In this document: positions 31,458 to 32,989 of the stretch, piece by piece
Layout of the letters: the number at the start of each line of letters is the position of its first letter
How positions within the stretch are numbered: position 1 is the first letter of the stretch
Assembly (NCBI RefSeq): GCF_020166335.1
Contig: NZ_JAIUJR010000001.1
Coordinates: forward strand, 62,001-126,000
Reading direction: 5' to 3'
DNA: 64,000 bases
From: Winogradskyella alexanderae
GTDB taxonomy: Bacteria > Bacteroidota > Bacteroidia > Flavobacteriales > Flavobacteriaceae
Notes under the pieces: model-generated
What the model saw: the letters and a program-made list of their open reading frames with translations, nothing else
Databases searched by the model: none
Told to the model about the DNA's origin: nothing
Made by a program: the position numbers and the translations under genes

Positions 31458-31925
31458 ATGGAATCTTTACAGGACTTTCTTCTTAACAAGGGTTATTCTA
31501 AAATCAAACTAAAATTTACTAAAACCAACCATTTTGAAATTAGAGCATACATCAATGGTGTAAAAGGGCGTTTTATTTTAGACACAGGTGCATCCAGTAG
31601 TTGTGTTGGATTTGAAGCTGTAGATAGATTTAAATTAAAAGTTAAAGATTCTGAAATTAGAGCGGTTGGTGCTGGCGCATCTAATTTGGAAACTAAAATT
31701 TCAAAATCTAACAATTTGAAAATCGGTAGATGGAAAAGAAGCCGTGTTGTTCTTATATTATTTAACCTCTCGCATGTAAATAATGGTCTAATAAATCACA
31801 ATGCAGAGCCAGTTGATGGTATTATTGGTGCCGACATCCTCAAGAAAGGTAAAGCTGTGATAGATTATCAAAAAAAATACCTTTATTTAAAAATGAAGGA
31901 TGTTTCTTTACAGAATCATGCTTAG
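31458..31925 (+). CDS. Retropepsin-like aspartic protease
   Basis: A 155-aa protein with a single aspartic-protease half-domain. The active-site motif is GRFILDTGASSSCVG (Asp42, the DTGA signature) and the second conserved element is PVDGIIGADIL (about 124-134), together the pattern of clan AA proteases, which work as dimers. The start ATG 31458 is preferred over an in-frame start at 31386, which lies inside tatD. No signal peptide is seen, so it is probably cytoplasmic. The response regulator follows 31 bp downstream, likely in the same transcript; substrate unknown. Confidence 0.85.
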   Translation: MESLQDFLLNKGYSKIKLKFTKTNHFEIRAYINGVKGRFILDTGASSSCVGFEAVDRFKLKVKDSEIRAVGAGASNLETKISKSNNLKIGRWKRSRVVLILFNLSHVNNGLINHNAEPVDGIIGADILKKGKAVIDYQKKYLYLKMKDVSLQNHA

Positions 31926-31956: not shown

Positions 31957-32583
31957 ATGAAACCAGCTATTGTTATTGCAGATGATCATCCTTTGGTCTT
32001 AAAAGGCTTGACGGACTTTTTAACTGAAAAGAAATATAATCTCATCGCCAGTGCCAACAATGGAAAAGTAGCGCTCTCTTTAATAAAAGCACATCAACCA
32101 GATATAGCTATACTTGATATTAAAATGCCTTTTTATACTGGTTTAGAAATCGCACAAAAGTGCAAGGAATCTAATTTGCCTACAAAAATCATTTTGATAA
32201 CTCTGGAAAAAGAAGAATCAACATACAAAGAAGCCAAAAACCTTGGTATTTATGGTTATGTTTTAAAAGAGTTTGCGCTGGAAGAAATTGAAAACTGTAT
32301 TGCCTCAGTGGTTAACGGACACGCCTATTTTAGCCCAGAGCTTATCGCCTATATAAAAAGAGATGATACTCCAAAGCAATTAAAAAATCTCACTCCAACA
32401 GAATTGAAAATTCTAAAACGAATCTCAAAAAATAAGACTGCAAAAGAAATTGGTGAGGAATTATGCTGTTCCCCTCGTACAGTCGAAAAACATAAAAGCC
32501 ATATTATCAGAAAACTAAATATTTCGAAAACACCTAACAGCCTTCTTAAATGGGCTAAAGAACATCAAAAGCATTTGGCTTAA
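31957..32583 (+). CDS. NarL/LuxR-family response regulator
   Basis: A 208-aa two-domain transcription factor. The receiver domain (about 1-120) has the acidic pair Asp9-Asp10, the phospho-acceptor Asp54 in ILDIKMP, and a conserved Lys in VLKEF, so it should be phosphorylated by a histidine kinase. The DNA-binding domain (about 140-205) is a LuxR-type HTH (LTPTELKILKRISKNKTAKEIGEELCCSPRTVEKHKSHIIRKL). No kinase is encoded nearby, so it is an orphan here. The spacer just downstream holds two copies of a palindrome at fixed distance from promoter-like blocks; NarL-type regulators bind such palindromes as dimers, so these are plausible targets of this protein. Confidence 0.95.
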   Translation: MKPAIVIADDHPLVLKGLTDFLTEKKYNLIASANNGKVALSLIKAHQPDIAILDIKMPFYTGLEIAQKCKESNLPTKIILITLEKEESTYKEAKNLGIYGYVLKEFALEEIENCIASVVNGHAYFSPELIAYIKRDDTPKQLKNLTPTELKILKRISKNKTAKEIGEELCCSPRTVEKHKSHIIRKLNISKTPNSLLKWAKEHQKHLA

Positions 32584-32587
32584 AATA

Positions 32588-32603
32588 TACGTAAGGTTAC
32601 GTA
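32588..32603. promoter_or_regulatory. Palindromic operator, copy 1
   Basis: TACGTAAGGTTACGTA, 7-bp arms around GG. It is the core of a 23-bp exact repeat (32587-32609) whose second copy is at 32742-32764. It starts five bases after the response regulator stop codon (TAA at 32581-32583) and 43 bp before a TTTACATTG block that is also repeated. Confidence 0.8.
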
Positions 32604-32644
32604 TAGTATCGTATTAATTTATTTTTGATCTTTACATTGTTATT

Positions 32645-32727
32645 AATTAAGGGTTAATAACGAGCTATTAATTAGTTCTTAGGGGATTATTAGAGCCTTG
32701 AACAACTTGTTCGAGGCTCGTTTTTTT
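32645..32727 (+). ncRNA. Candidate small RNA 1
   Basis: A short stretch with no ORF, bounded upstream by operator copy 1 and a promoter-like TTTACATTG (32631-32639), and downstream by a strong terminator (arms 32693-32703 and 32709-32719, one G-U pair, then seven T). A further hairpin is seen at 32654-32671 (arms TTAATA and TATTAA). The 5' end is estimated from the promoter-like block. The same layout recurs 155 bp downstream, which argues for a functional module. It might instead be the trailer of the regulator gene, but the operator and promoter-like block make an independent transcript more likely. Confidence 0.5.
32693..32727 (+). terminator. Terminator of small RNA 1
   Basis: GAGCCTTGAAC (32693-32703) pairs with GTTCGAGGCTC (32709-32719) through one G-U wobble; loop AACTT; G then seven T. 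Confidence 0.9.
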
Positions 32728-32742
32728 ATGAACTATTAAAAA

Positions 32743-32758
32743 TACGTAAGGTTACGTA
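32743..32758. promoter_or_regulatory. Palindromic operator, copy 2
   Basis: Identical to copy 1, within the second copy of the 23-bp repeat (32742-32764). The distance to the downstream TTTACATTG block (32786-32794) is again exactly 43 bp from palindrome start to block start. Confidence 0.8.
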
Positions 32759-32799
32759 TAGTATGGCTTTGTTATTATCCTCATCTTTACATTGCTATT

Positions 32800-32863
32800 A
32801 ATCGGACGCCTCAGATTAAATTCTGAAAAGCTCTGGATTAATTGCTTTTTCCAGAGCTTTTTT
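32800..32863 (+). ncRNA. Candidate small RNA 2 or attenuated leader
   Basis: About 64 nt between the second promoter-like block and a terminator (arms AAAAGCTCTGG at 32826-32836 and CCAGAGCTTTT at 32851-32861). There is no ORF inside. The 37-aa membrane protein begins 12 bp after the terminator, so this could be either an independent small RNA or a leader whose read-through controls that gene. Apart from the TATTAAT just after the promoter block, its sequence differs from candidate 1, so the promoter modules are duplicated but the RNAs are not. Confidence 0.45.
32826..32863 (+). terminator. Terminator of small RNA 2
   Basis: AAAAGCTCTGG (32826-32836) pairs perfectly with CCAGAGCTTTT (32851-32861); 14-base loop; T run to 32863. 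Confidence 0.88.
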
Positions 32864-32875
32864 AAATATCATATT

Positions 32876-32989
32876 ATGAATACGTTAAACAAAAATGCTA
32901 CTAAAAAGGATAAGATAGTTATAGGTTTTTTAATTGTATGTTCAATTATAGTAGTATCAGCCAACGTTGCAGTTAATTTTTTTAGTTAA
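32876..32989 (+). CDS. 37-aa single-helix membrane protein
   Basis: A short ORF translating as MNTLNKNATKKDKIVIGFL and then a hydrophobic helix (IVIGFLIVCSIIVVSANVAVNFF), ending in Ser. The basic N-terminus and single helix suggest an N-in membrane peptide. I recognise no family. The in-frame start at 32792 is rejected because it would translate through the upstream terminator. Support for its being real is the membrane-protein composition and the terminator 40 bp after its stop. Its only visible promoter is the module carrying operator copy 2, so it may be under the response regulator's control with attenuation. Confidence 0.5.
   Translation: MNTLNKNATKKDKIVIGFLIVCSIIVVSANVAVNFFS

Follow-up and report, generated by a model that had tools for sequence, protein, structure and literature searches.

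Predicted operator and small RNA modules in tandem beside a NarL/LuxR-type response regulator gene of Winogradskyella alexanderae and its relatives in the Flavobacteriaceae

The window analyzed here, a stretch of 64,000 nucleotides from Winogradskyella alexanderae, contains a gene for a NarL/LuxR-type response regulator (forward strand, 31957 to 32583) with the Pfam domains Response_reg (PF00072, E 1.6e-25) and GerE (PF00196, E 2.3e-13). A retropepsin-like aspartyl protease gene (31458 to 31925) lies directly 5' of it. Downstream of the regulator, two units follow each other on the forward strand. The first begins with a predicted operator, the palindrome TACGTAAGGTTACGTA (32588 to 32603), which has the form TACGTA-N4-TACGTA kept in relatives, and continues with a putative -7 box, GATCTTTA (32627 to 32634), a variant of TAnnTTTG recognized by the motif in the relatives' modules and by its position in Flavobacterium psychrophilum. 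Alignments, a match to model R1 (32664 to 32720, E 3.3e-06) and the fold then mark RNA1 (32639 to 32727, start inferred), a two-unit small RNA body ending in an intrinsic terminator (32693 to 32727), which is backed by a terminator scan, by the fold and by helix covariation across genera. The second unit carries the same palindrome, TACGTAAGGTTACGTA, as predicted operator 2 (32743 to 32758, by sequence match), a -7 box, CATCTTTA (32782 to 32789, from the motif in the relatives' modules), and RNA2 (32794 to 32863, start likewise inferred), a small RNA or micro-ORF leader supported by alignment, helix covariation and a match to model R1 (32794 to 32861, E 7.9e-05). Its terminator, possibly conditional (32826 to 32863; fold and helix covariation), stands just 5' of a micro-ORF (32876 to 32989) predicted to encode a 37-amino-acid peptide with a single membrane span. 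Both RNA stretches folded better than shuffled sequences (z of -4.5 for RNA1 and -4.1 for RNA2). Searches against Rfam 15 at gathering and permissive thresholds gave no small RNA (sRNA) family above the gathering score, and in the window only a tRNA was found.

A sequence-only reading of this DNA had reported an exact 23-bp repeat containing the palindrome, a block shared by both copies at equal spacing from it, and a terminator after each copy. Both copies of the repeat and the equal spacing were confirmed, and each copy does have its terminator: the scan detected the first (32693 to 32719), and the second (about 32826 to 32862) was missed by the scan but folds. With up to three mismatches allowed, the palindrome matched the window four times, corresponding to the two sites on both strands, against 0.38 matches expected; none of 100 shuffles reached four, and a third site was absent from the window. 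In the whole genome (3.3 Mb), the exact palindrome occurs at this locus only, the next best match having two mismatches. The tandem repeat is real, beyond chance. Among exact TACGTNNNNNNACGTA or TACGTTGCTCAACGTA sites elsewhere in this genome, two on contig C22 were discarded as parts of coding repeats of an adhesin-like protein, and one more lies on C48.

Of 68 genomes from the genus, 60, the window's own among them, had an orthologue of the regulator with at least 62% identity, and a search at E <= 1e-35 gave matches, paralogues counted, in 140 of 299 genomes of the family. The loci of 69 of these 140 genomes were used (30 from the search and 39 added). One stretch without the regulator (L146) was left out, and where loci had identical regulator proteins the duplicates were removed ahead of the counts, giving 116 distinct loci. 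Modules were called by a script as a palindrome-like site with TTTA/TTTG or TTAGC and a CTATTAA-like start. The palindrome and spacing that the sequence-only reading had proposed to look for in related genomes are kept, together with the -7 box and RNA start, beside the regulator in 94 of the 116 loci. These hold 172 modules 3' of the regulator, each combining the TACGTA-N4-TACGTA palindrome with a -7 box resembling TAnnTTTG, a short RNA and, in most cases, a terminator; there are one to six per locus (two in 61 loci, one in 26, three in six and six in one). The 22 loci in which the script found no module include L139, whose operator variant falls outside the pattern, and distant paralogues. 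Five more main-locus RNAs also have operator variants outside the pattern (L147, L159, L167, L169 and the second of L160). This comparison shows that the putative operator, the -7 box, the short RNA and its terminator have been retained together as one module next to the regulator. The four central operator bases vary among genomes, and the first two modules of one locus agree in 47 of 68 cases, against a shuffled mean of 8.5 and maximum of 18 in a control that leaves relatedness uncontrolled. The agreement is in line with regulator and operator being matched to each other, or with gene conversion.

The spacing within these modules was nearly fixed. From the palindrome start to the G of GCTATTAAT, 140 of the 172 modules measured 51 nt and another 23 measured 52 nt; a few starts with spacings of 26 to 31 or 72 nt are probably wrong picks. 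If that G is +1, the motif of the window and its relatives falls at the position of the flavobacterial -7 box, -12 to -5, where the accessible part of a published F. psychrophilum paper places the sigmaA TAnnTTTG box. In both copies of the window, the useful -7 element is kAnnTTTA at -12 to -5. Among the 140 modules with 51-nt spacing, A was found at -11 in all 140, TTT at -8 to -6 in at least 136, and A or G at -5; the script had demanded TTTA/TTTG or TTAGC no more than 16 nt from the start, and only the position of the -7 box is informative in these counts. The palindrome center had been placed about 50 bp upstream of the start, which has to be revised: it lies about 43 bp (about -43.5) from the likely starting G at 32639 or 32794, suggesting a class II-like spacing. 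The lack of a TTG -33 element, also claimed earlier, holds for the window, which has TAG at -35 to -33; among the relatives, TTG stands at -35 to -33, 20 nt 5' of the -7 box, in 52 of the 140 modules.

Across genera, the RNA body consists of GCUAUUAAUUAGUUCUUAGGGAGAAUUA followed by the terminator. In an unselected count, 77 of the 116 loci had TTCTTAGGG in the 700 nt that follow the regulator, and the reversed control gave 0. Within their first 48 nt, 97 of the 172 modules had AGGG, with at least one such module in 79 of the 94 loci, and the other 75, RNA2 among them, lacked it there. By type, 165 modules were sorted into 70 AGGG-type, 24 Winogradskyella RNA1-type and 71 others, and 7 more fitted no group. 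Alignment A1 was built from 43 of the 70 AGGG-type RNAs, in which AGGG is present by selection and atypical lengths were excluded. Its covariation over the whole structure was 0.411, compared with 0.241 in shuffled alignments (0 of 500 as high) and at most 0.149 for slid structures. Of the 13 terminator pairs, 12 had changes on both sides across this selected set of 43. Hairpin 1 (AGUUCU/AGAAUU, loop UAGGG) had a double change in one of its six pairs; because it is nearly invariant, covariation says little about it. Conservation spans the entire core and not merely a seed. Covariation, which the sequence-only reading had proposed to test on the two RNA bodies, was seen in the terminator helices, both for the AGGG type and, more weakly, for RNA2. 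Taken with the kept palindrome, spacing, -7 box and RNA start, the covarying terminators are as expected for regulator-controlled short transcripts and partly support that reading.

RNA1 of Winogradskyella consists of two units, GUUAUUAAUUAAGGGUUAAUAAC and GAGCUAUUAAUUAGUUCUUAGGGGAUUA; in an unselected count of 34 Winogradskyella-type loci, TTCTTAGGG was found in 33 and GGGTTAATAAC in 31. RNA2 retains GCUAUUAAUC, and the AGGG core is absent from it. Mean column identity was 86% for RNA1 (alignment A3, whose 23 rows were chosen by their first 23 nt, a stretch that is therefore constant by selection) and 78% for RNA2 (alignment A2, 23 of 30 relatives used). Support for the RNA2 terminator helix was weaker, with double changes in 3 of 10 pairs. 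Two small RNAs with divergent bodies had been predicted from the sequence; the bodies are indeed distinct, but the RNAs are not equivalent, RNA1 having the conserved AGGG core and RNA2 lacking it. RNA2, just 5' of the conserved membrane micro-ORF, may be its leader. In some species (L008, L014 and L019), an extra hairpin-like insertion was seen near RNA1, between the -7 box and the core. Pairing between RNA1 and RNA2 and anti-Shine-Dalgarno pairing of the core and of the Winogradskyella core were also tried and were no better than in shuffles (53, 90 and 252 of 500 as good).

The same RNA core was found behind other regulators. With a covariance model, matches at E <= 1e-3 were obtained in 49 of 149 genomes of the family and, within the genus, matches at E <= 0.05 in 32 of 37 genomes, leaving five without a match. 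Weak matches in the genus (L204 to L208, L210 to L213 and L215 to L219) were rejected as ordinary terminators, by eye, without an operator, and two candidate further cassettes (L209 and L214) proved to be RNA2 of the main cassette. The exact core 11-mer or its complement occurred at 59 places in 28 genomes, 47 of which are RNA genes of these cassettes: 46 coincide with model matches or cassettes (including G322:C1:1964721), and the 47th is a PAS-LuxR cassette. The remaining 12 places looked unrelated. Behind the PAS-LuxR protein, the core is preceded by the putative operator TACTCAAnTTGAGTA, with a center distance of 42.5 in 16 of 16 measured modules. Each of the 16 distinct loci examined (in 17 stretches, one locus being covered twice) had a PAS-LuxR orthologue 5' of the RNA in the same orientation; the nearest RNA lies 54 to 302 nt 3' of the orthologue's gene in 15 loci, the sixteenth being L195, and L187 has a second RNA at 484 nt. 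The genome of the window itself has such a second cassette, with a PAS-LuxR protein, the operator TACTCAAATTGAGTA and an sRNA (C49:106388-106451, or L177:989-1052). One further PAS-LuxR-type site, L270, was called from operator and RNA alone. In a third cassette type (L178 with two copies, L185 and L188), with the operator TTACGG..CCGTAA, the core follows 65 to 187 nt after a third regulator in all four modules, which come from three genomes, with center distances of 40.5 to 43 in three measured modules. A fifth third-type site with a changed RNA start, L271, was also called from operator and RNA alone. The third regulator had no Pfam match and looks like a response regulator; beside one of the L178 copies is a TPR protein with a weak HATPase match. 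Genome G247 holds all three cassette kinds (L159, L185 and L186), and the operator geometry is nearly equal across the three regulator types. Core RNAs without a recognized operator were seen at L190:1272-1343 and L220:516-582, possibly with further regulators. Another (L194:1375-1434, in genome G235, which is outside the regulator matches) lies by an aspartyl-protease-like gene, and a similar protease gene end was noted by eye upstream of the RNA in L192 and L194.

A micro-ORF of 30 to 53 amino acids with a membrane span, similar to that of the window, was found in 100 of the 116 main loci by a filter on hydrophobicity and C-terminal criteria, for which the reverse strand yielded 3 and shuffled bases 1. 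It matched no Pfam family. Applied behind the PAS-LuxR and third-type RNAs, the same filter found none in 19 of 19 stretches, and the core is therefore not merely a micro-ORF leader. In six of the 22 loci without a called module (L104, L107, L112, L115, L117 and L120), exactly 51 nt separate the operator start from the ATG of the micro-ORF. As this places the ATG at the usual +1 position, the message would be leaderless, which supports the +1 assignment and a direct control of the peptide by the putative operator.

We consider it quite probable that the locus is a regulator-sRNA cassette, in which several sensors would each drive a copy of one sibling sRNA in a Gac/Rsm-like manner without CsrA. 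The phosphorylated NarL-type regulator would bind TACGTA-N4-TACGTA as a dimer at about -43.5 and activate, in class II fashion, a sigmaA promoter with a poor -33 element. The products would be RNA1, of about 89 nt, and RNA2, perhaps with the 37-amino-acid membrane peptide. RNA1 would belong to a family of sibling sRNAs with the common core GCUAUUAAUUAGUUCUUAGGGAGAAUUA, which presents AGGG in a hairpin loop or single strand. Two other LuxR-type regulators would act from their own operators, at nearly the same position, before a copy of this core; with three regulators each having an RNA copy, a single RNA effector would thus receive several signals. Action in trans seems likeliest, through a common partner, probably a protein, that the AGGG elements would bind as in Gac/Rsm. 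We looked for three candidate partners in 30 genomes and found none of them: CsrA (PF02599) in 0 of 30, the genome of the window included, with positive controls in Escherichia coli, Bacillus subtilis and Thermotoga maritima; RRM proteins (PF00076) in 0 of 30, with positive controls in Bacteroides and Synechococcus; and Hfq (PF17209) in 0 of 30, with a control positive in five genomes. A wider proposal, which we hold tentatively and at somewhat less than even chance, is a CsrA-free hub across the Flavobacteriaceae, in which at least three sensory regulators with differing sensor parts, each bringing an sRNA gene, would feed one conserved RNA hairpin able to sequester a so far undiscovered RNA-binding protein, one branch adding a membrane micro-protein. 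Post-transcriptional control in flavobacteria is little charted, with Hfq, CsrA and RRM proteins not found in 30 of 30 genomes, and a core kept nearly letter for letter across genera behind several sensors offers a direct handle on the missing machinery, as a deletion target and as bait for the partner.

Many trans-acting sRNAs work by base-pairing, and a seed for several mRNAs might likewise lie in the AGGG loop or in the single-stranded 5' stretch GCUAUUAAU. FopS in Bacteroides, of the same phylum, offers a precedent, being described in the accessible text of PMC11697453 as a multicopy sRNA family with a common seed. Nevertheless, the exact 11-nt core complement was not enriched outside the sRNA genes, with 12 places in 28 genomes on both strands, compared with 47 for the reversed pattern, whose dinucleotides differ, and no recurring gene was seen among the 12. 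The conservation of the whole core rather than a seed, and the absence of an Hfq or RRM helper from the 30 genomes, also speak against base-pairing, which we regard as a real but rather unlikely alternative; a protein partner appears somewhat more likely. It is improbable that the RNAs are mainly leaders or attenuators of the membrane micro-ORF with no function in trans. RNA2 does lie directly 5' of the micro-ORF, and in six loci the operator would drive it with no RNA between, but RNA1 is followed by its own terminator and the second operator instead of the ORF, the core recurs behind the PAS-LuxR and third-type regulators with no micro-ORF passing the filter in 19 of 19 stretches, and RNA1 is conserved above RNA2 (86% versus 78%, the RNA1 rows being chosen by their first 23 nt).

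LuxR acts from -42.5, a class II activator position. The nearly fixed operator center of 42.5 to 43 corresponds to this position and, together with the poor -33 element of the window, argues against the palindromes being repressor sites through which the regulator silences the promoters, a reading suggested by the operator abutting the -33 region and one we give little credence. That the units are functionless repeated DNA, REP-like or remnants of insertions, might be proposed from the tandem copies with similar promoters. The confinement of the exact operator to this locus in its own genome, the retention of the modules beside the regulator across genera and the covariation of the terminators leave this idea next to no likelihood, and conservation refutes it in practice.

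With regard to described systems, the sequence-only reading knew of none matching this locus, and none was found in the open-license full-text literature. The comparison drew on PMC11697453, PMC12119571, PMC2375449 and an F. psychrophilum sRNA paper, as far as their accessible text extends. In Vibrio, LuxO drives the sibling sRNAs Qrr1-5, which are Hfq-dependent and sigma54-driven; one regulator with several sibling sRNAs is the likeness, whereas Hfq was not found in the 30 genomes here. The GacS/GacA system of Pseudomonas, with RsmX/RsmY/RsmZ and the CsrB-type sRNAs, likewise combines a response regulator with several sibling sRNAs. Its regulator is of the NarL/LuxR type, as the window's is by Pfam, and its sRNAs have G-rich hairpin loops. 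As for ANGGA loops, AGGG elements number one or two per RNA (97 of 172 modules have AGGG within their first 48 nt); many read AGGGA, which agrees with ANGGA, the first unit of the window excepted. A palindromic site upstream of the Gac/Rsm sRNA genes is described in the available part of PMC2375449, and a predicted operator at fixed spacing precedes each sRNA here, a likeness in presence and spacing only. In contrast to Gac/Rsm, the sRNA genes adjoin the regulator, copies occur with each of three different regulators, the core is another one, and CsrA/RsmA was found in 0 of 30 genomes. The proposed logic resembles that of Gac/Rsm; what differs is the RNA core, the pairing of every regulator with an sRNA gene of its own, and the lack of CsrA. 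Within the same phylum, the FopS/GibS family of Bacteroides, which works with RbpB, comprises multiple sRNA copies that share a conserved 5' part and end in an intrinsic terminator (PMC11697453, accessible text), as is the case here. Linked regulators or operators are not described for FopS in that text, an RRM protein was not found here, and our RNAs had no Rfam 15 match above the gathering score, although FopS may not be in Rfam 15. Lastly, the Rfp RNAs of F. psychrophilum (Rfp11, Rfp13, Rfp15 and Rfp18), compared by description only, are conserved structured sRNAs of the same bacterial family. Rfp18 differs by a third stem-loop in the accessible description, and the Rfp RNAs may include members of the sRNA family reported here.
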